Positions 15,176 to 64,000 of a stretch of DNA of 64,000 bases are shown piece by piece; the stretch's first letter is position 1, and each line of letters opens with the position of its first letter. The stretch covers positions 336,710 through 400,709 of the forward strand of contig JAACJM010000062.1 of assembly GCA_013368315.1 (NCBI GenBank), written 5' to 3'. Below the pieces are notes generated by a model. That model saw nothing but the letters and a program-made list of their open reading frames with translations. It was not told where the DNA came from and ran no database searches. The translations under genes were made by a program, and so were the position numbers. The DNA is from Tetrapyrgos nigripes (lineage: Eukaryota > Basidiomycota > Agaricomycetes > Agaricales > Campanellaceae).

Positions 15176-16522
15176 ATGTCTTCTTATCTCTTTTCCATCA
15201 CCATGCCTATTATCAACCGAGGCTCTTCGCTCAGACCCAACAGTTTTGACCCGTTGAAACGCAAGATGCACAAAAACACGGCGACGATTGAATTGTTGAA
15301 GAAACTCACCCTGGAAGAGAGGCTGAAGGCGAACTTGGAGATTGAGAAGAGGAATGGGTTGAAAAGACAGGCGAAGTTGAAGAAGGTGAGGGGAGAGGAT
15401 GCAGACGACATGTCAGATACAGCATCCCTCATCACAATTGTGGACAAGGAATATGAGGGTATCAGGAAGAACCCCGACCTTTATGATCATTTCAAGCCCT
15501 TCCTTCCCGTCCGAGTCATCGAGTGGATTAGCAGGAAGAATGCTGAGGAAAAAGCCATTGGGAAAAGTGTGTTGGGTAAGCATGCATATGCTCCTGAGGT
15601 TGAGACTATCAAACGCGATCCCACTAACTCGGTTGACCTCACCTTCCCATCCGAGCTCTTCCTCACTGCCAACCACAGTTACCTTCCCCTGGGCCTCTTC
15701 CATAGCACCCGCATCCAACGTCTCGCTACTGTTGGTGCCAGCCACAACACTCGCATCGTCTATTCTGACGGCAACAGCGCAAAGTTACGCATCTGGGACG
15801 TTAACGCGATGGTGAAAAGCTTCGGCTTCGAAAACGACGATTTCGAAGGCCTCCCCACATACATCCACTACACAGACGCTATGGCCATCTACATGGACTT
15901 CGTCACAGAATGGGAGAAGAACAAGGAAAATGGACCCCATTCCCAATTCATTTTTGTGCACAGTGGTTTTTGGTGCAAAGACTCGGAACTCATCGACTCA
16001 TACACTTACTGGAAACTGGCTGAAAAGGAACTTTGCATGGACTGGCACGATCAGCATCTTGGGTACGACTCCACGACATACCAGGGCAAGCTGCAGAGAT
16101 GCTGGACCAGATACACATTGGAGCAACTTGTACCTTCCTCCTCCCGGAGTTCCAGACACGACAACCGTTGTGAAGACTGCAGTGAATCTGGCTCCTGCAG
16201 TTCTTGTCACACCCCCTTTCCAAAAGGCAATGCGCAGGATGCCAACATGTGTTGCCTACTCTGTGGCGAGCGAGGTCACCGAGTCTCGCAACATCCAAAG
16301 GACAGGGCAACTCTCTGGGTGAAGAGCAACGGGAAGGGAATGCAACACCCTACCAATGGTAAAACCATTTGCATCCCTTTCAACGTCCTTGGACTTCGGG
16401 GTGGTCGAGGTCCAAACCAGCGAGCTTGCCTGGGAGACTGTGGTAACCTCCACGTCTGCTCCTTCTGTGGCAACACCGATCACCACGCCTTCTCTGGCAA
16501 GTGTGGTAGGTCCTCTTACTAA
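15176..16522 (+). CDS. Gag-like protein of a DIRS/Ngaro-type retroelement
   Basis: An uninterrupted frame of 448 codons precedes the reverse transcriptase. The N-terminal third is basic and charged, as expected for a coiled or nucleic-acid-binding segment. The C-terminal third is Cys/His-rich: CEDCSESGSC near residue 330, then CLLCGERGHRVSQH and CSFCGNTDHHAFSGKC, which are degenerate zinc-knuckle-like CX2CX4H patterns. Its 3' end overlaps the next frame by about 170 nt in a different phase, so pol expression would need frameshifting, internal initiation or splicing. The gag role is inferred from position and zinc motifs. The start may be the ATG at 15176 or the one ten codons later. Confidence 0.6.
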   Translation: MSSYLFSITMPIINRGSSLRPNSFDPLKRKMHKNTATIELLKKLTLEERLKANLEIEKRNGLKRQAKLKKVRGEDADDMSDTASLITIVDKEYEGIRKNPDLYDHFKPFLPVRVIEWISRKNAEEKAIGKSVLGKHAYAPEVETIKRDPTNSVDLTFPSELFLTANHSYLPLGLFHSTRIQRLATVGASHNTRIVYSDGNSAKLRIWDVNAMVKSFGFENDDFEGLPTYIHYTDAMAIYMDFVTEWEKNKENGPHSQFIFVHSGFWCKDSELIDSYTYWKLAEKELCMDWHDQHLGYDSTTYQGKLQRCWTRYTLEQLVPSSSRSSRHDNRCEDCSESGSCSSCHTPFPKGNAQDANMCCLLCGERGHRVSQHPKDRATLWVKSNGKGMQHPTNGKTICIPFNVLGLRGGRGPNQRACLGDCGNLHVCSFCGNTDHHAFSGKCGRSSY

Positions 16523-17776
16523 TCCTATCCTCGTGCCGTCCCAGGATATCGTTATGGGCAACGATACTCTCTCAAGGGACCGCCTTTCTGCCTATACCCT
16601 TGCCTCCTCACCACCAGATCCTCTCATATACACCGACCTCTACCCCTTCATCCATGAACACCATACCCATCCCAAAGCCAGTCCTACCCATACCGAAATC
16701 TATGATCATATTGTCTCCCCCTACAATGCCGATGCCTTCGAACAAGACCTTTCCACTCATGGACTCAACGACACCTTCCCCTACCTGGTACGAAACCTCC
16801 ATCAAGGTTTCGCCATTGGACGCTTACCAAAATTAACAACAACTGTCGTCATGCCTAACCACAACTCTTGCAACATTGGGGAAGGGCCCAGGGTGGTCAA
16901 GGATTATATCGATGGTGAAATCAAGGCAGGTCGTTTCTCCGGTCCTTTCCCCATGTCCACTATGAAGAAGATCATGAAGGGCCATTTCATCGCCTCTCCT
17001 CTGATTGTGGCTGAGTCGGAACAAGGACTGGGACTGCCGGTGAAGTACCGTGTCTGCCAAAATCTGTCTAAGGAGGTTAAAGGACAGCCGTCTGTCAACT
17101 CCTACATCAGTAAGGCAGACTTTCCTACCAGATTCGATACCCCAGTCACAGTGGCAGACTTGGTGAGTTTTCTTCTACCTTCTACGATGCAATGGCGTCT
17201 TCTCTTCTACGGTGCTATCACCATTCTACCTTTACGATGCAACGGCATCTTGTTTTATGGTGTGCAACACCATTCTACTTCTACAATGTGACGATGTCCT
17301 GTTCTATGGTGTGCAACACCATTCTACTTCTACGACGTGTTGACGTCCTGTTCTACGGTGTACTACACCATTCTACTTCTACGACGTGACGACGTCCTGG
17401 TCTACTGTGCCTTGCGCTATTCTACTTCTATGTTGTGTTGGCATCCCCTTCTATGGTGTTTACCACCATCTTACTTCTACGACACGACAGCGTCTTGTTC
17501 TACACTTCTACTTGTTCTATAATACCCTATGTATTGGTGGGACCGTTTACTTATGCATGCCTTTTTGCAGATTGCTTCTGCCCCTGAGGGTACACAAGCT
17601 TGTGCTCTCGATATCAAAAAATTCCACCGTACTTGTCCTGCTTTGCCCACTATAAACCATTCCTTGTTGTCCATGTTCAGGGCATGTTTTATGTTGATCA
17701 CTGTGTTCCATTCAGTTGTGCGTCAGCCAGTAGTAATGCTGGTATGATCGCCAATGCCGCCATCGCCATTTGGGCT
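16515..17776 (+). pseudogene. Reverse transcriptase, N-terminal half (interrupted)
   Basis: This shows the RT of a tyrosine-recombinase retrotransposon: GLNDTFPYLVRNLHQGFAIG, EIKAGRFSGPF, YRVCQNLS, SVNSYISKADFPTRF, then after a 408-bp intron ACALDIKKFHRTCPALP and FYVDHCVPFSCASASSNAG...IAIWAP. These correspond to RT blocks up to just before the catalytic YxDD. A one-base frame change near 17650 separates RTCPALP from the FYVDH block. At about 17776 the coding stops abruptly. The continuation, with the EDD block and RNase H, lies on the opposite strand at 19266-18226, which shows an inversion. The element is therefore dead at this copy. Confidence 0.75.
17163..17570 (+). repeat. ~50-bp minisatellite inside an RT intron
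   Basis: The intron begins GTGAGT at 17163 and ends TTTTTGCAG at 17570, in phase 0 between VADL and IASAPEG. It contains about seven diverged copies of a roughly 50-bp unit, each with TTCTACTTCTACGACGTG, GACGTCCTGTTCTA and GGTGTRCAACACCAT blocks. Introns are known in DIRS-like elements; one filled with a tandem repeat is unusual. Confidence 0.75.
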
Positions 17777-19271
17777 CCCAGTCTGCAATACGGTGCTTGG
17801 CTAGGACATGTGGTCGTAGGTCTGAGGGCTTGATCTCGTTTGCTTTCCAGGCAGGATGGGTAGAAAGATGTGAGGGATCGACAGGGGAACGAGTTGATGC
17901 GGCATCAGGTGCAGTAAGAAGGGTCGTAGAAGTGGAAGGAGATGAAGGTGGGGCTATTGAAGCCTCAGGTATAGAATTAGTATGGCGTATCCTTTTAAGA
18001 GGGTTGCAAAATAATTTCTGCAGAAGAAATAAATGAGAAAATTAACGACATGTTGACAGTTGAACCTCAATAAGACATACAATTTCAGGAGAAGACGGAG
18101 CTGTGCCAACATGCGGGCGTTTAGGAGCATTGCAAAAGGGGTTTTGGAATGGTGAGGTGCGCAGTTCCTCACCATCCTGGGCATCGTTCAAAGAAGGCAA
18201 TGACCGGTGAGGTTTAAATGGATTCTTAAACATATGACAAGAAAGGTTTCAACTCCTCGGGTAGGTCAAACGAGAGGAGGAGCTTTTTGAGGGGGTTTAC
18301 AGGGGGACCCAATTCTCTGTGCGAGATAGGGTCAGCAGGGTTTTCGGCAGATGCGACATATTGCAGGGTAATGGACATGTGTAAGGGAAGGATGATGTTG
18401 TAGATACGATGAATAGAATGGTTGATCCATATGTTAGGGCTGCGACCTTTCTTGACAGCTCCAATAGTGCCTTGGTTATCAGAATGTACAAGGAGGTTAA
18501 CATTCTGGTAGCCAAAGTCCTCGACAAAGTAGAGGAGGAGTTCGACAGCTATCATCTCCAGGTAACAAATGTCCCAGCCTGGGCACATCTCCTTCCACTC
18601 AGGGTGAAGCCGAAAGGCAGTCCATTGTTCACCAATGACAATACCAATACCCCAAGAGGTACTAGCATCAACATAAAGACATAAATCCTTGGCCTCAGTT
18701 CTTGGCAGCAGTACATGAGGTGAGCAGGGAGTCAAGAGCACTTTGAGCCACCACTCAATGTCTTTGACAACCCAGATGGGGGTGCTAAGGCGTCTGTAGT
18801 AGCTGCCCTTAAAAAGGGTAGCAAAGTTGGAGAGGGATGGTAGGCGAGAATGTCCATGGACATATATGAAAGCACAATGGCAGAGAATACCATGTACCTT
18901 CTTGATAGGTTTGAGATCACATAGGTTGCCTCTATATGTGAAAAGGAAACGATCAAGATGATAAACCTATTTCAATCATTTTGTTTCCGGTAGCCAGACA
19001 AGTCGTCGGGGTAGGTCCCACTGTAGGCCGATGAAGGTGGTAATGAAGACAAATTTGGCGTCACCTTTGTCCTCTGCTGAGTGCCAAGGGATACCGAGGT
19101 GCTCTATCAACTGGAGCATAAGCTCCTTGTCATAAGCATAGTTGAGGGAGCCTGGAAGACCACTGATGGGCATGTGCAGCAACTTGAAATCGTCTTCGCA
19201 GCGTTTGATGGGTTGAACCCCTTTAGCTGACCCCTTTTTCTCTGCAGCAGAAGGAAAAATATTCATCTACC
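17777..19271 (-). pseudogene. Inverted segment: RT C-terminal half and RNase H
   Basis: Read on the minus strand from about 19271, this gives GVQPIKRCEDDFKLLHMP (the catalytic YxDD position, here CEDD), LGIPWHSAEDK, FITTFIGLQWDLPRRLVWLPE, then KVHGILCHCAFIYVHGHSR and an RNase H domain (18741-18226) with YVDASTSWGIGIVI, CYLEMIAVELL, HSDNQGTIGAVKKG and ENPADPISH. After further exons the minus reading reaches SDLRPHVLAKHRIAD at about 17780, the linker that precedes the recombinase in such elements. Reversing this segment would place RT-RNase H-linker in order and in the same direction between WAP at 17774 and QRVISSAEKAIAG at 19272. Confidence 0.78.
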
Positions 19272-20372
19272 TTTCCCCAGAGGGTCATCTCGTCTGCAGA
19301 GAAGGCCATAGCTGGCTCTACCATTGACATCACCAAAGAAACCTATGCTGCAGGTTTAACCCATTTTACGCAGTACTGCGATGAACTCAATATCGACGAG
19401 AGTCAACGTATGCCAGCTGATAAAATGCTGATAGCTGGATTTGTGGGCGAGCATATTGGTAAGGTCTCTGGTTCGACGATCTCTAATTGGTTGTCGGGTT
19501 TGAAGGCTTGGCATGAGACGAAGGGTGCTCCTTGGTGTGGTGATGATCACTGGATCAGAATGGCTCGCAGGACTGCTCATCGCAAAGGTGTAATCCACAA
19601 ACGCAAACCACGCTCCCCTGTCACCCTCCATCATCTCATTGCACTTCAGAAAGCCCTCAATTTCTCTATTCCCTTCCACATAGCTATCTGGGCAGTCGCA
19701 GTCATAACATTCTGGGCTTGCAGACGCCTTGGCAAGACAACTATACCATCAGAGGCAAAGTTTAACCCAAATTTCCACGTCACTGGGGAAGCCACTTTCT
19801 GTCACTTTCAACAACCGGATGGTACCCGCGCTGTTTCTTTCCACTTACCCTGGACCAAAACAACGCATGGTAATTCAGCCGACATCATTATCTCTGGCCT
19901 CATTGACGATCTGGAAGACATTTGTGGACTCAAGGCTTTAGCTCTCCACCTCAACATTAACAAGGACGGACCGAAGTTTTACTCACTATTTGGATATATA
20001 GATGCGCAGGGTAACCCACAGCACATGGTCAAGGACAAGTTCCTTGAACTATGTTTTGATATATGGACCAGGGAATGTATTTGCAATGTCCTTGGTCACA
20101 GTTTCAGGATCGGCAGCGCAGTTCACCTTCTCTCCCTTGGACTTGCACCAGAGTATGTGGCAGCTGTCGGTGGTTGGACGTCGCTTGCATTCCTTCTGTA
20201 TTGGCGTCGTATTGTGGAGATTGTGCCTGTCGCCATTCACAAGGCCATGGAGTTGGAAAAGGTGAAGAAGGCCATTGAAGACTACCGAAAAAAACTGTCT
20301 ATCTCTAATGCTATGATTGAGAATGTGGCCTCTGGACTTTCTTGTACCCCGAATGACTTTTTAGATGATTGA
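19272..20372 (+). CDS. Tyrosine recombinase of the retroelement
   Basis: The open frame extends upstream of the first ATG (19410) to a possible acceptor CCCCAG at 19269-19274, reading QRVISSAEKAIAGSTIDITK and then a core-binding domain (YAAGLTHFTQYCDELNI, TISNWLSGLKAWHETKGAPW). The catalytic domain carries the first arginine in WACRRLGKTTI, then LPWTKTTHG and LGHSFRIGSA (the H-x-x-R box). The last box is VGGWTSLAFLLYWRR, where Tyr occupies the nucleophile position. Such enzymes integrate a circular DNA copy of DIRS/Ngaro elements. The frame is intact to TGA at 20372, unlike the RT. Alternative: a Crypton-type recombinase, unlikely given the adjoining RT/RNase H. Confidence 0.75.
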   Translation, partial: FPQRVISSAEKAIAGSTIDITKETYAAGLTHFTQYCDELNIDESQRMPADKMLIAGFVGEHIGKVSGSTISNWLSGLKAWHETKGAPWCGDDHWIRMARRTAHRKGVIHKRKPRSPVTLHHLIALQKALNFSIPFHIAIWAVAVITFWACRRLGKTTIPSEAKFNPNFHVTGEATFCHFQQPDGTRAVSFHLPWTKTTHGNSADIIISGLIDDLEDICGLKALALHLNINKDGPKFYSLFGYIDAQGNPQHMVKDKFLELCFDIWTRECICNVLGHSFRIGSAVHLLSLGLAPEYVAAVGGWTSLAFLLYWRRIVEIVPVAIHKAMELEKVKKAIEDYRKKLSISNAMIENVASGLSCTPNDFLDD

Positions 20373-51299: not shown

Positions 51300-51967
51300 A
51301 CAGTCCTCCCCATTTAACATGGATCACTTGCATGAACAGAATACTCATGCACAAAACTGACCTTGTAACTCTCCTGCCTCCATCTTCCGATCCTAAATGA
51401 GGAGATTACTGAAACTGACATTGATATTCTAAAATCCTACCTCTCTGCCCACCCCCATGCAGCATGTTAACACTTCCAGCATTGACAACACCACCTACTC
51501 CCTCATCCTCAATGTCAACAATGACATCCTCTGCCATCTCTATCATGAATGCTTTTGCACAGGTGAAGTGCCTTCTGCCTGGCTAATCACTCTGCTCTCT
51601 GCTCTCTGCCTTACCTAAATGGAGCAAAGATCTTTCTGACCCCAACAACTACTGTGCTATAGCCCTCAAAAGTTGTTTTTTGAAGTTTGGCACCTTGTCC
51701 TCCAAAAACTGACCACTGTTTCTGAGCATGGTAACCTCATTCCTCCCTCCCAGAACAGTTTCCACTCTGGTCACCGTACTAATAACAATGCATTTATCTT
51801 GCATTCACTTATCAAATACTTTCACAGTCACAATGAAACCCTGTTTGTTGCCTTCATTGATATATCCAACACATTCCCCACCACTAACCACAATGCTCTC
51901 TGGAACTGTCTTGATGATCTTGGCCTCACCAGCATTTATTATGACTGACTGTGAAACCTCTACACAA
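51300..51967 (+). pseudogene. LINE-type reverse transcriptase, left part
   Basis: Degenerate non-LTR retrotransposon RT with stops and frame changes: CFCTGEVPSAWLITLLSA, DPNNYCAIALKSC, then the best-preserved frame 51673-51948 reading LIPPSQNSFHSGHRTNNNAF and LFVAFIDISNTFPTTNHNALW. The F-x-D block is the RT catalytic A motif. The sequence is cut at 51967 by the 3.35-kb element and continues at 55323. Confidence 0.7.
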
Positions 51968-52131
51968 ACACACTGGAAGCAAATCCCTATAAATACGCCG
52001 CCATACAGGGGTATTACAGCAGCCTTACTACAAGTCATTCAATAAGTAACACACCTTACATTACAGAAGTATTACAAACACATATATTTTTCAGAACAAT
52101 GCTGTAAGACTGCTATAAAGCAGGGGGATTA

Positions 52132-52281
52132 CTGTACTATTCCAATCAATTCATGAGTCATGCGTCACACCCAATTTTGGGTGACCCCGCCAATAAATTT
52201 TTCTCGATTTTTCCGATTTTCTGAGATTTTTTGAAAAAATTAAAAAGTCACGTGCATTGTGAATTGAACGAAAAAGTACAG
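52132..52281. mobile_element. MITE inserted in the left arm of the fold-back element
   Basis: 150 bp, with CTGTACTATTCCAATCAATT at the left end and ...AAAAAGTACAG at the right, flanked by TA (52130-52131, 52282-52283). The opposite arm has the unoccupied site GGGGGATTACAGCAACA (minus strand, TA at 55162-55163). This proves insertion after the arms formed and TA as the target duplication. It is related to the MITE at 14307 by its terminal 20 bp. Confidence 0.85.
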
Positions 52282-53002
52282 TACAGCAACATTTCAGTGT
52301 GACATAGTGTCACAGTAATACATTCTGTAATACTGCCAAGAAATACAGAGGTATTTCAGAGTGACACTGGAAGAAATTCCTGTAATTAGCCTGCCATACA
52401 GGGGTATTATGATGTCCTTACAACAAGGAATTCAATAAGTAATACACCTTACATTACAGGAGTATTACAAACACATATATTTTTCAGAACAATATTGTAA
52501 GACTGCTGTAAAGCAGGGTGGATTACAGGAACATTTCAGTGTGACATGCTGTCACAGTAATACATTCTCTAATACTGCTGAGAAATACAGAGGTATTTCA
52601 GAGTGGCACACAGTCACAGTAAATCTCACAGTAAGTCAAGACAGTATTACAGGGGATTTACAACATTGGATTATGTAGTAAATCTTCAGTCCTGACAAAG
52701 GTATTTACAAGAGACTTACTGTGACATTTGAGTCACAGTAATACATTGGTAAGACAGTGTGGATTACAGAGAGAATACAAGAATCAGAAAGTAAAATTTG
52801 AATGTGGTAATTCACCTGAAAAATTCTGGTGCTGTGACAGAGGATAAACAATGTGACAATTAAGTCACAGTAATACTGCAATAAGAAACAAAGTATTACA
52901 GAGGTTTTACATGGATGCTGAGATTTTGGAATGTATGCTGTAAGGCATCAGGACTTACAGGAGACTTATCAAAAACAAAGATGGAGGACAAATGATATGA
53001 AA

Positions 53003-53372
53003 GGATTCAGGGTGTATTCATGGAAAATTCACAGGACATATTCAGGGTGTATTCATGGACAATTCACAGGATGTATTCAGGGTGTATTCAGGGTGTATTC
53101 AGGGTGTATTCAAGGCGTATTCAGGGTGTATTCAGGGTGTATCCAGGGTGGACATATTCAGGGTGTATTCAGGGTGTATTCAAGACATATTCAGGATGTA
53201 TTCAGGATGTATTCAGGCTGTATTCAGGACGTATTCAAGGCATATTCAGGACATATTCAAGGTGTACTCAGGGTGTATTCAGGGTGTATTCAGGACATAT
53301 TCAGGGCATATTCAGGACATATTCAAGGTGTATTCAGGGTGTATTCAGGATGTATTCACAAGACATAGTCAG
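53003..53372 (+). repeat. 11-bp tandem array, forward orientation
   Basis: About 33 copies of ATTCAGGGTGT and variants (ATTCAGGACAT, ATTCAAGGTGT, ATTCAGGATGT). Some units are replaced by longer spacers (CATGGAAAATTCACAGGAC). The repeat has no stops in any frame, so the long frames it yields are artefacts of an 11-nt unit. Confidence 0.9.
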
Positions 53373-53375
53373 GGT

Positions 53376-54420
53376 GGAATACACCCTGAATACGTCCTGA
53401 ATGTCCTGAATACATCTTGAATATGTCCTGAATATGTCCTGAGTACGCCCTGAGTACGCCCTGAATATGCCCTGAATATGCCCTGAATATGTCCTGAATA
53501 TGTCCTGAATACTCCTGAATACACCCTGAATACACCCTGAATACGCCTTGAATATGTGCTGAATACGTCCTGAATACACCCTGACTACACCCTGAATACA
53601 TTCTGAATATGTCCGGAATACATCCTGAATACACCCTGAATATGCCCTGAATATGCCCTGAATACGTCCTGTGAATTCTCCATGAATACACCCTGAATAT
53701 GCCTTGAATATGTCCTGAATACATCCTGAATACTCCCTGAATATGCCTTGAATACACCCTGAATACACCTTGAATATGTCCTGAATATGTGCTGAATACA
53801 CCCTGAATATGCCCTGAATATGCCCTGAATACGTCCTGTGAATTCTCCATGAATATGCCCTGAATATGCCTTGAATATGTCCTGAATATGTCCTGAATAC
53901 TCCCTGAATATGCCTTGAATCCACCCTGAATCCACCCTGAATACGTACTGAATATGTCCTGAATACACCCTGAATACATCCTGAATACGTCCTGAATACA
54001 CCTTGAATATGTGCTGAATACGTCCTGAATACACCCTGAATACACCCTGAATATGTCCTGAATATGTCCTGAATACGCACTGAATATGCACCGAATATGT
54101 GCCAAATATGCCCTGAATACGCCCTGAATATGTCCTGTGAATACACCCTGAATACGCCTTGAATACGTCCTGAATACAGCCTGAATATGTCCTGAATATG
54201 TCCTGAATACACCTTGAATGAATACATACTGAATACATCCTGAATATGTCCTGAATACATCCTGAATACATCCTGAATATGTCCTGAATATGTCCTGAAT
54301 ATGCCTTAAATACATCCTGAATACGTCCTGAATACGTCCTGAATACGTCCTGAATACGCCCTGAATACGCCTTGAATATGCCCTGAATATGTCCTGTGAA
54401 TTGTCCATGAATACACCCTG
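53376..54420 (-). repeat. 11-bp tandem array, reverse orientation
   Basis: About 95 copies of the same unit in reverse complement (TGAATACACCC, TGAATATGTCC, TGAATACGTCC). The direction switches once, at about 53373-53380, the palindrome centre. This array is nearly three times longer than the forward one, so one arm has expanded or the other contracted. Spacers TGTGAATTCTCCATGAATA recur at about 53660, 53830 and 54390. Confidence 0.9.
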
Positions 54421-55325
54421 AATCCTTTCATATCATTTGTCCTCAATTGTTCCTTTTTTACCCATCTTTGTTTTTGATAAGTTTCCTGTAAGTCCTGATG
54501 CCTTACAGCATACATTCCAAAATCTCAGCATCCATGTAAAACCTCTGTAATACTTTGTTTCTTACTGCAGTATTACTGTGACTTAACTGTCACATTGTTT
54601 ATCCTCTGTCATGACACTGGAATTTTCAGGTGAATTACCACATTCAAATTTTACTTTCTGATTCTTGTATTCTCTCTGTAATCCACACTGTCTTACCAAT
54701 GTATTACTGTGACTCAAATGTCACAGTAAGTCTCTTGTAAATACCTTTGTCAGGACTGAAGATTTACTACATAATCCAATGTTGTAAATCCCCTGTAATA
54801 CTGTCTTGACTTACTGAGAGATTTACTGTGACTGTGTGTCACTCTGAAATACCTCTGTATTTCTCAGTGGTATTACAGAATGTATTACTGGGACAGCATG
54901 TCACACTGAAATGTTCCTGTAATCCACCCTGCTTTACAGCAGTCTTACAATATTGTTCTGAAAAATATATGTGTTTGTAATACTCCTGTAATGTAAGGTG
55001 TATTACTTATTGAATTCCTTGTTGTAAGGACATCATAATACCCCTGTATGGCAGGCTAATTACAGGAATTTCTTCCAGTGTCACTCTGAAATACCTCTGT
55101 ATTTCTTGGCAGTATTACAGAATGTATTACTGTGACACTATGTCACACTGAAATGTTGCTGTAATCCCCCCTGCTTTACAGCAGTCTTACAACATTGTTC
55201 TGAAAATCTATGTGTTTGTAATACTCCTGTAATGTAAGGTGTATTACTTATTGAATGACTTGTAGTAAGGCTGCTGTAATACCCCTGTATGGCAGCGTAT
55301 TTACAGGGATTTGCTTCTAGTGACA

Positions 55326-55576
55326 TGTGATACTGTTTGGTTTTGACTGATGAAGCTGGCTCTGGTGTCCTGATGGGTGAACCTGCTTCCCCTATGCTCT
55401 GGAACCTATACCTCTCCACCTTCTCATTACCTCCCCATTGTGATGACCTGACTTTAGATGGCATAACATTTTCACATTTGGAACATGCTGACAACATGGT
55501 TATCATCTCTCATTCAGCTATTAGCCTTCAACACCACTGGTGCTATGACAATGAAGTGGTTGTGGGCCAGCACTGA
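55326..55576 (+). pseudogene. LINE-type reverse transcriptase, right part
   Basis: Continues the RT cut at 51967: GVLMGEPASPMLWNLYLSTF (motif B region, G-x-P-x-SP-x-LWNLYL), DDLTLDGITFSHLEHADNMV, where HADNM stands at the catalytic ADD position (second Asp replaced by Asn), then IISHSAISLQHHW. The loss of Asp and upstream stops show it was already decaying. Confidence 0.7.
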
Positions 55577-55579
55577 AGC

Positions 55580-58340
55580 ATGGTGAATACGAGGCCAGCA
55601 CGGTCCCAGATTTAAAGTACACATTATTTGAAGGTTTAAGCTGAGCACACTCTGCGTATCCATCTTCCTCTACTTGAGATGGTGAAAAATCAGCACATCA
55701 GTCCTGCACAATTCTCTTAATCAAGGAATTTTACAAAATGTCAGTTTGAATTTGTAGGAATTACAATTAGTAATTCATAGTAGAATTATAGACCACATAA
55801 TGGAGTTGATGGATTGTATTGCGCTTGCAGCTTTGAATGAGTTACTTGCTGCAATCACATGATGTTGTATCTACTTTTACAAGCTTTTATACTATGTACT
55901 ACTGTGGCTGAGCAAATCTGTAAATAGAGCAAAGTGGTGCTAAGCGGATACTACAATGTAATGTCTGAGATCAGTCTGGAGTAATGATATAAGTAAAGTG
56001 GAAAGTGAGTGGTGCGTATGTGGCTAATTATATAGAATTCCAACAGAATTTGCACACAGTCAACAGGTTCAAAAATTGTAATTGGCTCTACACAATACCA
56101 GTCACATTTATGTGTCTCAAATAGACTCAGAAAATGAGATTTGGCAGCATTTTTAGAAGAAATATTATGATACTTAGCCAGCTGTTTCAGTGACTTTACC
56201 AGCAGAGATGAATATAATTCAGACAAAGGTATTGATGTGTATACAAGCAGCTGATTGGCTGTTGAGCGCAAAACAGAATCTGAAAAGCTATAAAACTAAT
56301 AAAGGCTGGAAGAGGGCTTGTATATCAGGCAAGGAAAAAGTAGATAATTCACTAAATATGGGAACAAATATGTTTTGATTGGCGAATTGCCGCCTTCAAA
56401 AAGAGGATGATATACTGATCCATCAGACTCAAAATGGACAGCTGTATCTGTAAAACTTTTTAAAAAGTTCCCCTTTTCTTAACATCTTGGCAATTGCAAA
56501 AGTCGATGTTAACTTTTGGCAGGGTCCGAAGGGTGGCGAAGAGCTTTCCTAAATGGGACAAAAGCTCTGGAAATCTATAACATATGTCACAAAAGTGTGA
56601 CAAATACTCGAAAATGTGTAACAGGCTGTCACTACTCCTTTTTAGAATAGTGTGGCGGGTTGGGCCAGTTTTTTCCCATGCCCCTTTGTCCTATAATGGT
56701 TTTAGCAGCCATTATGTGGCAAAAAAATCTCAAAAAATCTCAACAAATACTGAAAATATTCATACCTTTATTGTGATGATGTAATAGGGGTATAACTAAT
56801 GGAGGTCACTTTTACAAAAGTATAGCATATCTTTTTTACACAACCACTTTTGCAAAAGTATGGCAGATATATGGAAAAAGTGCCAGCAATTAAAATTGAA
56901 TTGGCACATCAGAGAGTGCATCCTGGGTGGCTAAATTATAATATCAAATTAGATTTGCAATATATGGAGCAGTGATACGCCGTACAAAATCGCCATATAC
57001 ATACTTAGATTTTGGTCCATAATATCAGTTTTGATGTTCTTTTAAGGGAATAAGAGGACTAGGGTGAGCCTTGAACTGCTAGTTAAGACCTAGCAGGACT
57101 AGAAAACAACGGTACAATAATATTAAGTGCTTATGGATGGAGAAACAACTCATTCTAAGTACTATATAGATATGTATGAGTTGGAGTTATGATAGCAGAC
57201 CCACCAAATAATAAAGATAGCCTACAAAGGCTTTCAAATCCTATTATAACAACTAGTACCACTAGTGAAGTGCGAGATAGCCCCTATTTGCAGGCATAGG
57301 AATGCATAGGCAGCACAATCCTCAGCTGAAAGGTCAATCAGAGAAGACAGCGCAAAGATTGGACATGCAGACAAGCACGCTAGGTCTAGATCTATGTATC
57401 AGCAAATCCCATAGTACTAAGATGGCTTCAAAGGAGTCTTAAGTATCTGTAAAAGGTACATGTGGATAAAAGTAGGACAAAGTATATATGTACAGGATCC
57501 CAGAGAGTTCAGCTATCCATTGGTACAGAGGGGATAGTGAATGGACGCCTCTACACAGAGATATAAGGGACAGAAGCGCTAAGTTGCAGTACATCCAAAC
57601 AATCAGAATACAACCCAAACGGGTAACAGTATTTCCAGATAAGGATAAATCTGTCAGTAAGCGTCTAGCTAGGTGTTGAAAGCATTGAAGGATGAATAAG
57701 TATGCAAATGGGACTGCAGAAGAGCTGGACTCGTATGTAGGACTAAGTAGTAGACTGTTGGCAATGCATAGAACACATATAAAGCAAGTTCAGAGAAAAG
57801 GGAAAGGAAAACTGAACGGAACAAAGAAACTACGAGAAAACCCTATGCCCCTAGCATAAGGACATGTATGAGGGACCTAGCGGTCATAAGTGGAGTGTTC
57901 TGAGTCATAGATGCGATGCTCGCTAACCAGGACAGTATACAAAACACCAGATGGCTTACAAAGAGGACTGAAGAAAGTTCCTACCAATATTTCTGTATAC
58001 CCTAATAAGCAAGTCTTTACTTACAAGGAAATAGGTAGAACTCGCTAACGGACTTTTCAATTTGTTTTGTATTTTCTCTACATACCTTTTAGCGGACATC
58101 AAAAAGAAATAAGTAACTGTATAGTTGTACAATACCATTGTCTGACCCATTACTAAATGAGCTACCTGCTGTAGTTCTGAAGTCAATTGCTAACCTGCAC
58201 ACCATATTTTTAGCAGTTCGAAGTGGAAAGTTTAATGTGGTAGATGTTCAAACTGTCTGTCTGTTGTGGTCCTTTTTGAACCATTCATTGTGAAGTCTGC
58301 AGCTGAAAGAAAGAAGCAATAATATTCAAACTTAGACAGT
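55580..58340. other. AT-rich stretch between LINE and Helitron
   Basis: Frames of up to 106 codons with AT-rich composition and no recognised domain (for example 56271-55951 minus). It probably contains the left flank of the Helitron, but I found no certain TC-type 5' end. Confidence 0.4.
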
Positions 58341-61300
58341 ACTGCTAAACATGATATTGTTGTTGAAAATAAGACTGCCCGTCATGCAGCCAAAAAGTGC
58401 AGCACATTCCCACTGAAGCCACCTACCAATAGCAAAATTTTGGATATAATTTGGGGCTTTTGTCAAGATACTGATCCCTCTATGTTCCAAGAAACAGGCT
58501 GTGCTGTATGTGGTCAGTTGCATCCATTGAAGTCTAGTCAACCTTTTCATCATGACCAACTCAATTTGGATATATTGAAAGTGCCTAATGTAACCAGGAA
58601 GGAACAAACATCCTTAACAGATCCCATTATTGAATTGGAAGGCCCTGTTTTGGCCAGTGGATGTGACCACATATGCAATGATTGTTTCACCAGCCTAGGC
58701 AAAAACAAAATGCCTTCCAAAGCTTTAGCTCAAGGCCTTTGGATTGGAGACATTCCAGATGTACTTAAAGACCTTAGATTTGCAGAAAAGTTGTTGATTG
58801 CAAGAGTTAGACATAGTCAATGTTTAGTGAAAGTTGCCTCTGGACAATATAAGATGAAGGCTAATATTATGTGCTTTTCAAATCCAGTAGATAAGATATA
58901 CAATATTTTACCACCTGGAAGGGATGAACTAGATGAGATGATTGCATTCATGTTTACTGGACCCTCAAAGCCTACTCCAGAACAATTGAGAGATACACCA
59001 TTATTGGTCAGGAGAGCTGTAATTAAAAAGGCTTTAGAGTGGCTGAAGTTAAACCACAAAGATTATCAAGATATTGTCATATCTGAAACCAACCTCAACT
59101 CTTATGCTGATGAAAGTGTACCTGTCCCATATGAATATTATCAGCAAGATTGTAATAAAGATGCATTGACAACAACTATAAATGAAGAGATTGAAGATGA
59201 AGGTACAGAAAGTGGTCCTTGTCCTGTTAGTGTGCATGGTCTTACAGGATATGACTTTGGAGAGATGACTTCACACCAAATGCGAGCAGCAGCATTGAAG
59301 CATTTGAAAGAAAACAAGAACATATTATTTGTTGCACACAATGAAGAACCTGTTCACTTTTTCCAATGATGTATCCCTATTTGTTTCCTTACGGCCTTGG
59401 TGGCATAAACAATTCTATGCAGACATCTAAGATGGGTCGGACTGCTCATAAAAGATTCTATCTCATGTATTATGATAAATGTTTCCAACTGGAGCCCAGT
59501 TTCTCTATTATTGCTTTCAATATTGAACAAATGAGACAGAGCAACAATGGTGGGTTCATTATAACCCATCGCAAAAACATTGACAATATAGCAGAACACA
59601 TTCGTAAATTGGACACTAAAGTCCTCGATGATATGTATAATTGATTCAAGAACAAAGAGTGTGTTGTACCAAAAACTGAACAAGAAACAGCATGTCTGCA
59701 ACTAATACATGATGTTGATGCTGTTGGTTCTCGTGTACAAGGATCTGTGACCTCTAAGAAACACATGAGAAATGAAGTATGGTCTCTGATAAATAAAATT
59801 GGATCACCATCTTGGTTTATAACTATATCACCTGCTGATGTCAATCACCCAATATGCTTGTATTTTGCAGACACTGATCAGGAATTTAAACCAGAAATAT
59901 GAGACAAGAAGTTGTGAGAACAGTTGATCAAGCAAAATCCAGTGGCTGCAGCAAGATTCTTTGATTTCATGATCAATGCATTCATAAAACATGTACTGGG
60001 AGTTGATGCTGATCATGATGGTTTGTATGGCAAGACTAAAGCTTATTATGGAACAGTAGAACAACAAGGACATCTGACATTGCATCTACATCTCTTACTG
60101 TGGATTGCGTCAAGTTTAAGTCCTCAGCAGATACAAGACCAGATACTTAAACATGATTCTGAATTCATCCAATCACTGGTATCATATCTAGAATCTTGCC
60201 ATGTTGGGCAGTTTGAAACTGGTTCCAGTATCAGTATAAATGAGCAAATAATATTAAACAAAACAAAACATGGATATAAGAACCTACACTTACAATGGCT
60301 AAGGCACCACCTACTGATAACTGTTATTGTAAAGGGGAACGAGCTTGTAGATCTTGTATAAGATTAGAAGAATGGACTGACAATTATAAATAGGAATGTG
60401 ATGACCTGGCCTTCTGATCTAATATGCACACCTGTCGTAATGCCAACAAGACAAAGGGTGGAGATAAATCAGGTGCAATTCATACAAGACCAGCATGTCT
60501 TGTTGATGGTGTATGTAAAGCCCAGTTTCCAAGAGAAGTTCATCCTCAAACTTTGATTGATCCTGCCACTGGATATATAGAGATGAAAAAAGGGGAAGCA
60601 TAGTAGAATACATGGACACCAGCTATCACATACCTATTCAGATGTAATACAGATGTTACATCTCTGTTGTCTGGTACAGCAGTCAAAGCTTGTGTGGCCT
60701 ATATTACTGATTATGTCACAAAACCAGGACTCAAAACATATACCTTCTTTGAAGCGATTAAGAGTGTATATGTCCAGAATAGCAGATTTATAACCAGTAC
60801 AGGTGATAACAGAAAACTAGCCAGGACAATGTTAGTAAAAATGGTGAACAGCCTCACAGGAAGAATCAAAATTGGAAGTCCAATGGCTTCCATGTATCTG
60901 TTGGGTATCCCAGATCACTATACCAATTTTGATTTTATCCCATTTTTTTTGGACTCAGTATGTGGACAGAGTGAGAACACAATGGAATGACCATGATAAT
61001 ATATTGAAGTCTCAGTCAGATATACATGATAAAGAAGGTCAATCAATTCTAGATGAGAAGGTGTGGCTGAACAAATGTAACAATGATAAATTTGTGGGGA
61101 TATCAAAAGTTGATGATTATAGTTTGCGAGGTGAAGAAATTCAGGAGATGAATCTGTACGATTTCATGCTGACCTATCGTAAACAATCAATTAGAATGAA
61201 GAAGTCAAAGATCAGTGAAGACAAAGACCTTATAGAATACAATGATATGAGTGACACAATGGAGAAACTGAAGATAACTCAATGCACATTGATGAAGAAT

Positions 61301-64000
61301 ATCCACCATCACTTGCACGTTTCATGTCAGTGCACCCTCAGCATGACACACATGGTCTATTGAGGCATAAGAAACTGGAGAATGTGGCTTTGAATTTTGT
61401 AGGCAGGACATTACCCAGAAAAGATAAGGGTGATCGTGAATATTATTGCTGTGTTATGTTGTCATTGTTCAAACCTTGGAGGGATGGATCTGAACTGAGG
61501 GAAGTAGGTAAAACTTGGGAGGAGGCTTTCAATGCACACAATTTCTCTGATACAGAGCTAGAGCTTACGGTGAACTTCAATCTGAGATATGAATGCAATG
61601 ACGCCAGAGATGATTACTCTGCATTGAGACAGCGAGGTAAAGCAGTTCCAATAACAGGGCCAAACTTCAGTGTTGATGATAAGGATAATCAAGCAATGCA
61701 TGAATTCCTCCACAAAGTAAATGAAACCTATAATCAAGATGTGGATGAAGAAATCATAGACTTTAACACAGAAGACCTGCTGCCAAACAACAGCACTGTC
61801 AAGAATAACCTTCTGAATAACCAAATTTCTAGAACACTTGAAACATTAGGTATAATGGATCCTCACAGTGAAAGATACATATTGGATGAAAAAACTAAGA
61901 GTTTTGTTCCTGATATAACAATTAATGGGTCTTCTTGGAAACAAAAAGTGGCAGATGAAAAAAACAGGGTGTCATTGGCCATGAAATACAGCACACCCCC
62001 CAGTCAAAATCATGACAAGTCTGATTCTAAAAACCAATTCACAAGATGGAATGAGGTTGTCTTTGATGATGCCTCTTACATAGATCAAAACTTTAAGAGT
62101 CAGATGGTTGAAGGACAATGCTTGTCTAATGATATAGTAAAAAATGAAGATTTAAATGAGGAACAGGTGGTATGGGTGGTACAGGTAAAAGCAGAGTGAT
62201 CCATTCTCTACGCAAGTTTTTTAATGATAAAGGTGAAGGTCATACTATGGTAGTGTGTGCACCAACAGGTACTGCTGCTGCATTGGTACATGGTTTAACT
62301 TATCATTCCCTGCTCAGATTTTCAAGACCAGCATCTGAAGATGTATCTGTAAACAAGGATACGGGTATAAAGAAAGCCAGAGATAATCTGGATGGTGTTG
62401 GATATGTATTTATTGATGAGGTCAGTATGTTAAGTATGCAGGACATGACCCGTATAAATCAGAGACTTGGACAGATATCTGGAAACTATGACGCAGGGTT
62501 CGGTGGATTTAGTGTCATATTTGCTAGTGATTTTGCACAATTACCATCTGTGGGAGGTACTTCTTTATACACAAAAAAATGCCCTCACATGGACCGAGCA
62601 CACTCTTTTTATACGCAGGTTGAGGAACTGGGTAAAGCTCTCTGGCATCAAGTAACACATGTTGTGATTTTATGTAAGAATATGAGACAGCAGGCACAGA
62701 GTGAAAATGATACCAAGCTGAGAACAGCATTGGAGAATATGCAATTTGCTTCATGTACAGCTGAAGATGTTGAATACTTGAGATCTAGAGTGGCTGGTCA
62801 ATTGTCAGGTCAACCAAAAATCAATGACCTGGACTTTAGATATGTGTCTATCATAACAAGTAGAAACACTCAGAGAGACTGTATAAATAATTTACAGTCT
62901 CGTAAATTTGCAGATGAAGTGAACCAGCCTCTTCATGCTTTCTATTCATGGGATATTATTGGGCATGGGAAGGATCCTGCTAACACCTGCCATAAGAAAT
63001 ACAGAAGCACAATGCCACCAAAGATAATGTCAGAAATGCTGAGACAAGCCCTGTGTATTACATTTGTGTATAGGGATGCCAGTGATGATAAAAAATAATG
63101 AGGCAACAGAGTTGTGTATAACAAATGGTCAGGAGGCACATGTATATGGTTGGAAGTCAGCCAGTGATACAAATGGAAAAGAATATCTTGATGTGTTGTA
63201 TGTTAAATTACATAAACCTGCCAAAGACATTACAATTCCTGGACTTCCTGAGAATATTGTGCCATTGTCTCAAAATAATGTACCTATAACAGCTAGGATG
63301 CCCAGTGGTGAAACTTACAGTATAACACGTAGTCAAGTCCAAGTAATTCAAAACTTTGCAATGACAGACTTCAATTCACAAGGAAGGACAAGAGATCACA
63401 ATGTATGCAGTTTGTCACAGGCAAGAAACCACCAGAGCATATATACTGCAATTTCTAGAAGCTCAACTCACAAAGGAACAGTCATAATGGAACCACTCAC
63501 ACATTTGACAATTGAAAAAATAACTAGTGGGTTAAATGGATTTTTGCGCCAGGAATTCCATGAATTGGAGATCCTAGATGAGATTACATGTTTGAAATAT
63601 GAACGACAGTTACCAGACAATGTTAATGGTGTGACCAGAGTTGATTTAATTACCCAATATTTATTGTGGAAGGGCAGACAGTATGTCCCCCCAAATGTGC
63701 CTATCCAAATTTGTTGGTCTGAGGAAGATCATTTTGAGGATGTTGAAAATTTCAATGAAGTGTTTGAAACCCATAAACAGTCCACCAAAACAAAGAAGAA
63801 ACAGCTCTTCAGTGTATAAGATTGCAGATACAGACAGATATGTTGCAGCTCCAGGCTCTCAACCTTTGCCAAATGTGACCAATAAACCCAAAATTCTACA
63901 TGAGACTGGACATGAAGAGACCTATACTTCAACAAAAAGACGTAAAGTACAACTGCGAAATGAACAAATTGGTCCAATTGGTATAAATTGGATGAGCAAA
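58340..64000 (+). mobile_element. Helitron RepHel gene, decayed, runs off the window
   Basis: The coding remnants of one Helitron transposase, on the plus strand. 58340-59369: N-terminal part (ETGCAVCGQL, then a C-x-x-C segment DHICNDC). 59366-59644: FPYGLGGINNSM...HKRFYLMYYDKCFQ. 59650-60360: Rep nuclease with FITISPADVNHPI and GHLTLHLHLLLW (HUH-type His pair). 60667-60990: CVAYITDYVTK, the two-tyrosine motif. 61282-62199: linker with NLRYECNDARDDYSA. 62172-63098 and 63064-63819: PIF1-like helicase with Walker A GGTGKSRVI, Walker B FIDEVSML, DFAQLPSVGG, and a C-terminal SQGRTRD motif. In-frame stops at about 59642, 59901 and 59916, frame changes at about 59365 and 63070, so it is inactive. 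Coding continues past 63820 to the edge (frame open to 64000), so the 3' hairpin and CTRR end lie outside. Confidence 0.88.

Follow-up and report, generated by a model that had tools for sequence, protein, structure and literature searches.

Probable CACTA-type foldback transposons with tandem terminal units and a satellite core form two sister families in Tetrapyrgos nigripes

A 3,352-bp insertion in the window (the whole 64,000-nucleotide stretch of DNA that was analysed, on contig C62 of Tetrapyrgos nigripes) is, with a probability that we put at about 0.76, a non-autonomous foldback transposon of the CACTA/EnSpm type that belongs to family A of a pair of families, A and B, and is moved in trans. 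The insertion occupies 51971-55322, starts with CACTGG and ends with CTAGTG, and has the trinucleotide ACA on its left and on its right, as read directly and by script. Its parts and flanks are as follows.

51700..51970, + strand: left part of an interrupted dispersed repeat, LINE-like by reading only
51968..51970, no strand: target-site duplication ACA, left (direct reading and script; a single ACA in the empty-site copy C222)
51971..52364, + strand: left outer terminal unit (O), tip CACTGGAAGCAAATCC, with nested insert
52128..52278, no strand: nested insert of ~151 bp in the left outer unit, boundaries from alignment to the right unit
52365..52609, + strand: left inner terminal unit (I), tip CACTGGAAGAAATTCC, with the outer-unit end just before it
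52610..53004, + strand: inner left arm, more degenerate repeats
53005..53374, + strand: 11-bp satellite TGTATTCAGGG, first polarity
53377..54423, - strand: 11-bp satellite, opposite polarity, GAATACGCCCT
54424..54835, - strand: inner right arm
54836..55080, - strand: right inner terminal unit (I)
55081..55322, - strand: right outer terminal unit (O), tip CACTAGAAGCAAATCC, CTAGTG on the + strand
55323..55325, no strand: target-site duplication ACA, right (direct reading and script)
55326..55600, + strand: continuation of that dispersed repeat on the right

The arms, aligned without the nested insert, are 883 nt (left) and 899 nt (right) long and share 857 identities, with 24 mismatches and 20 gaps. 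Two tandem terminal units open each arm, with the inner tips at 52365 and 55080; the left outer unit has 394 bp, or 243 once the insert is taken out, and the right one 242 bp. The core is an 11-bp satellite, traced in its first polarity over 53005-53358 and, on a further reading, to about 53374, with the reverse polarity from 53377. The long open reading frames of the element are read-through of this satellite, and the longest has a single Pfam match, Spore_GerQ at 25.2 bits against a cut-off of 25, to which no stretch contributes a passing score by itself and which is taken as chance. Long inverted arms with tandem repeats around a core with little or no coding capacity are the architecture of a foldback element. 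A preliminary description, made from the sequence, had claimed CACTA-type ends, long inverted arms, arms that consist of complete terminal units on either side of an 11-bp satellite, and a core with no gene, and all four claims hold. The insert at 52128-52278 ends in CTGTAC/GTACAG, adjoins TA and looks like a small TA-target MITE.

The two flanks, joined and used as a query, gave 40 listed matches (40 of the 68 candidates scored), two of them the window's own flanks. The joint is crossed by 15 of the 40, of which 13 cover at least 410 bp of the query at 66-75% identity. The empty-site copy C222 reads ACACCAACATGTG, with one ACA at the joint; it also has 18 additional bases, spread over several small gaps, the first of them a few bases right of the joint and all within about 50 bases. 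The matches across the joint and the single ACA in C222 mean that the window element inserted itself into a dispersed repeat and duplicated 3 bp there, as had been claimed. The further label of this host repeat as a LINE, a reading by eye of a LINE reverse transcriptase, is made plausible by reverse transcriptase-like peptides, but a Pfam search of the two short flank peptides called no domain.

We searched the genome of T. nigripes (Agaricales; 98.5 Mb in 587 contigs) for the tip pattern and counted 280 places at no more than three mismatches, 100 of which were listed; the reversed pattern, as a control, gave 0, so the repeat is not due to chance. Two related families with many copies emerged from this search for the same ends, which the preliminary description had put forward as a check. 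Family A, that of the window element, has the outer tip CACTGGAAGCAAATCCCTGTAAATAC at 85 places at no more than one mismatch, and comprises long forms and MITEs of ~569 bp. The latter consist of the outer unit and the first ~41 bp of the inner unit, inverted; they are MITEs in being short, lacking a gene and sharing their ends with a longer element. The sister family B has the same architecture and the tip CACTGGAGGCAAATCCCTGTAAATCA, found exactly at 115 places. Among the 100 of these 115 tips that were listed, neighbours less than 20 kb apart are convergent in 36 cases, divergent in one and oriented the same way in two, and the 36 convergent pairs span 1.5-17.3 kb (median 4.6 kb).

An exact 3-bp duplication flanks each of the seven long copies in which both ends were read (window ACA, L037 TGG, L040 ATA, L041 TAT, L042 AGA, L045 TGA, C34 TAT); the remaining long loci have one end or none within the stretches read. 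From 19 short loci, three without an outer tip (L050, L053, L062) were dropped, and 11 of the 16 left have a matching 3-bp duplication (L047, L048, L049, L051, L052, L056, L058, L059, L061, L063, L064). The other five (L054, L055, L057, L060, L065) have none, L065 agreeing at two of three positions. Since L051 and L052 share their flanks, the independent count for short copies is 10 of 15. Flanking trinucleotides of other copies had been named as a check on the claim, and together with the one ACA of the empty site they give the 3-bp target-site duplication of CACTA/EnSpm. The duplicated trinucleotides vary, with ACA, TGG, ATA, TAT, AGA, TGA, GTA, CTG, TAG and CCA among others.

Some short copies deserve a remark of their own. 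L051 and L052 (G000:C475 and C429) represent one insertion found on two contigs, with identical flanks over the 30 bases seen per side, and are likely haplotype or segmental duplicates. The host flanks of L055 (G000:C115:207238-208806) are inverted copies of each other, exact over 92 bp, which is either an extension of the palindrome into host DNA or a fold-back in the assembly; the left flank of L047 (C574) is close to that of L055 (98 bp, no more than five mismatches), but its right flank is different. Two short copies 26 kb apart, G000:C99:228882-229450 and 255210-255778, carry mirrored tip variants, which suggests an inverted duplication of the stretch.

The inner units raise the question of which tips serve as ends. 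Because CACTGG/CCAGTG recurs at 52365 and 55080, the preliminary description read 52365-55080 as a shorter element with ends of its own, nested in the longer one; on that reading the inner borders are working ends and the shorter element is, or was, separately mobile. The A inner-tip pattern has 87 matches in the genome at no more than three mismatches, and the end of an outer unit lies directly upstream in 85. The other two are C65:366114, whose letters make it an outer tip, and C73:324132, which is 224 bp inward of an outer tip. With 85 behind an outer unit and the last one internal, none of the 86 A inner tips is the end of an element, and none was found bordering host DNA, within a reach of three mismatches that a more diverged free inner end would escape. 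Moreover, inner and outer tips are unlike in all long A arms read, the inner one being shorter by at least one base and having AAATTCC or similar in place of the AAATCCC of A and B outer tips, and CACTG is absent from the second unit in 13 of 13 B arms. The nested shorter element is contradicted by these counts, and we regard it as very improbable; the outermost tips are taken below as the ends of a single element.

Two units are present in all 13 B arms and in 10 of the 11 long A arms that retain the outer tip, the exception being the right arm of L037, with one. We compared 10 outer and nine inner A units (excluding the partly deleted L035), 16 outer units from those eight of the 19 short copies whose geometry is equal, and, from family B, 13 units of each position, first and second. 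Within A, identity is 96.1% between outer units, 93.0% between inner units and 89.1% between outer and inner; within B, it is 96.5% between first units, 95.6% between second units and 83.3% between first and second. Group means between A and B units are 74.6-80.9%. An unrooted tree unites all B units, first and second, in one clade (support 0.999) and places the A inner units, as a clade of their own (0.975), among the A outer units. Going by these sequences, each family appears to have duplicated its unit separately: either a tandem duplication occurred once in each, or conversion may have erased an older one. Signs of homogenisation of the arms within an element are mixed: the arms of L045 are 100% identical and the inner units of the window element 98.0% (best other 95.1%), but in several elements the arms resemble each other no more than they resemble those of other copies.

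A short motif recurs in the arms. GTAATAC, counted on both strands, occurs 13 times in the 895 bp of the A arm, where the top 7-mer count in 200 shuffles was six, and eight times in the B arm (highest shuffle six), counts that are partly built in because the arms hold tandem units. The GTAATAC/TTACAG motif was picked from the arms themselves; over four unit consensuses, with the A outer unit as reference, 50 of 55 motif columns are invariant, compared with 70 of the 115 remaining ones, and in 169 circular shifts the count never came up to 50. In the tip, the first 30 columns of the unit alignment, just 16 of 29 are invariant, which a change of the inner tips would explain. With GTAATAC/TTACAG in both orientations, the arms have the subterminal repeats of CACTA/EnSpm, and by analogy with those these repeats are putative protein-binding sites.

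The core has a period of 11 in family A and of 22 (two 11-mers) in family B. Array length runs from less than 0.1 kb in L034, which may be truncated, to 5.4 kb in L033, behind an A arm, and the switch of polarity is not universal, L033, L035 and L039 having a single orientation in the part read. Samples of 800 bases were taken at the midpoints of four B pairs of 9.9-14.5 kb, and in three (C71, C138, C80) the satellite fills about 740-800 bases; the fourth, from C170, holds an rva_4 integrase-core gene. The 11-mers of A, TGTATTCAGGG, and B, TGCGTCCAGAG, differ at four positions, all by transitions, which hints that the two satellites may share descent. The CG position in the 11-mer of A (eight loci, n=1,401) reads CA 535 times, TG 444, CG 317 and TA only 16 times, and that in the 11-mer of B (six loci, n=297) reads CG 152 times, TG 74 and CA 65 times. 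The arms have observed/expected CpG ratios of 0.24 and 0.03 and the core one of 0.38, while the remainder of the window stands at 0.78. This is the pattern that decay of methylated CpG would leave.

Both families are most likely non-autonomous; we infer that a CACTA-type transposase encoded elsewhere drives them. There are 117 Transposase_21 matches in the genome, and no transposase with matching ends (CACTGGARGCAAATCCCTGTAA) was found for A or B among the genome elements examined. The preliminary description had proposed looking for a CMC transposase gene with matching terminal inverted repeats; the one Transposase_21 gene placed inside a listed B pair sits in another CACTA element. That gene is in C34, the single case, compared by eye, in which one of the 117 matches falls inside one of the 36 listed B pairs. 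The pair (C34:14467-29856, 15.4 kb, TAT/TAT, arms 95% identical over 875 bp) was a candidate autonomous B element and was rejected, the gene lying in a nested element. C34 and C139 are shared up to GGGCGCACAGTG and then diverge, and matches to C2 and C151 stop within one base of it; from this common end, coinciding with the ends of the C2 and C151 matches, we place the gene in a nested CACTA element, whose right end, CACTGTGCGCCCGGG, is a CACTG-type end of another family. The nested element makes up about 1-7472 of L076 (G000:C34:21500-29990), carries Transposase_21 and a DUF4218 match slightly below cut-off, has B-family satellite as its host, and has relatives in C139, C2, C11, C32, C405 and C88. 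Elsewhere, the far-apart B tips at 396692 and 419948 of C22 would span a Transposase_21 match at 405072-405521. An integrase-core gene, rva_4 (PF24764; L083, G000:C170:43100-43899), lies at the midpoint of the 11.7-kb B pair C170:37643-49318.

Other transposase groups were tried as drivers and rejected. One KDZ (Kyakuja/Dileera/Zisupton) match, among the matches listed, falls inside the tip pair C37:383130-400388; those near copies at C227, C48 and C10 are outside the tips, and one at C20 is beyond a tipless arm. No A or B tip was found at the Plavaka loci L066-L075 at up to seven substitutions, a search in which three of the 10 loci (L068-L070) align full length with their ends not reached and the others did not align.

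Two alternatives to the main reading concern the source of the transposase. In one, family B (or A) encodes its own transposase in rare long copies, for example rva_4 in C170, Transposase_21 in C34 and KDZ in C37. The tip pairs of all three enclose such genes, yet the element around the C34 gene has its own CACTG end, common to C139 and within one base in C2 and C151, C34 alone among the 36 listed B pairs holds one of the 117 Transposase_21 matches, and three of the four sampled midpoints of long pairs are satellite; we give this possibility little credence. The other, which is unlikely though less so, is that a different lineage of DNA transposons with 2-3-bp duplications (PlavakaB, PIF/Harbinger or an unknown CMC) is at work instead of CACTA/EnSpm. 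Since no transposase with matching ends was found, the superfamily is assigned solely by the termini and the duplication length, and the lack of such a gene leaves room for another lineage. The outer ends CACTGG/CCAGTG have the CACTR..YAGTG form of CACTA/EnSpm. The target duplication of Harbinger is TWA, whereas the duplications here vary. The Mutator-type foldback Tetris has 8-10-bp duplications and KDZ elements 7-8-bp ones, against 3 bp here. Plavaka genes are abundant in this genome (at least 163 matches) and, according to the part of the source available, Plavaka can give 2-3-bp duplications; its termini are TGT..ACA or CATCA..TGATG and not the CACTGG..CCAGTG found here, and the duplications of Kyakuja (7 bp) and Zisupton (8 bp) differ in length from those here (PMC12730594). 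The same part gives CAC..GTG termini with 3-bp duplications as the signature of fungal EnSpm (PMC12730594).

Under the CACTA/EnSpm reading, a CACTA-type transposase made elsewhere would cut the outermost tips only. The arms would be arrays of transposase binding sites (GTAATAC/TTACAG, conserved between the four unit lineages), whose number the tandem duplication of the terminal unit would have raised. The inner copy would go unused as an end because its tip is altered, in A by being one base shorter with AAATTCC for AAATCCC, and in B by the absence of CACTG. The satellite core would grow and shrink via unequal exchange or slippage, and may be, or may have been, CpG-methylated. More tentatively, and at odds that we put short of even, two CACTA lineages may have independently doubled their terminal unit with a disarmed inner end, around a self-expanding, CpG-methylated and largely palindromic satellite of 11/22 bp, and may act as mobile carriers seeding methylated blocks of many kb. 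The seeding of satellite over many kb is drawn from the midpoints of three B pairs (9.9-14.5 kb) and the 5.4-kb array behind an A arm being satellite.

In A and B, inverted arms of ~0.9 kb enclose an 11- or 22-bp satellite that is often polarity-switched, whereas the terminal inverted repeats of CACTA elements tend to be short. The nearest architecture is that of Tetris and Galileo of Drosophila, although the ends of Galileo differ from those of A and B. As far as the available parts of the source go, Tetris of Drosophila virilis is likewise an ORF-less foldback element with long inverted arms for which a complete driver was not found; its arms hold internal tandem units of ~220 bp that have part of their sequence in common with the terminal domain, it has an end-sharing MITE (DAIBAM), as A has, and its repeats feed satellite arrays (PMC4079207). 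Tetris differs in its 8-10-bp duplications, for which its authors suggested Mutator, in a variable number of units and in its other ends, and those parts of the source do not mention an 11-bp satellite core (PMC4079207). Galileo, by the same account, is foldback-like and has extra transposase binding sites in its arm tandem repeats, as is proposed for A and B, but belongs to the P superfamily (PMC4079207). Fungal EnSpm elements and the CACTA element Jozin of Chenopodium, in the parts of the sources available, resemble A and B in CAC..GTG ends, 3-bp duplications and subterminal direct and inverted repeats, and unlike A and B carry a transposase gene (PMC12730594, PMC8978399). Jozin copies can also hold a satellite array, with a 171-bp monomer (PMC8978399).

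In the available parts of the literature searched, with subscription papers and Repbase outside its scope, no fungal CACTA foldback element was found. The remark in the preliminary description that such arms fit no described family is uncontradicted by that literature, with the qualification that the architecture has precedents, Tetris and Galileo, in other superfamilies. What is new is the combination of CACTA-type termini with foldback architecture, in two sister families. A and B are a CACTA-type counterpart to the foldback elements of other superfamilies. Two families side by side make it testable whether duplication of a terminal block is favoured by the added transposase sites, provided that the inner end is disabled. 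They also offer a specific path along which a DNA transposon would spread a short-period, CpG-bearing satellite that is then apparently methylated by the host.

Elsewhere in the window, a 49-bp minisatellite (17173-17503) lies inside an ORF-rich stretch at 15176-20369, of which three ORFs were tried and had no Pfam match. At 58440-63816, Pfam matches identify a DUF6570 protein (58440-59366) and a PIF1 helicase (62172-63095), genes that we label Helitron-like by reading.
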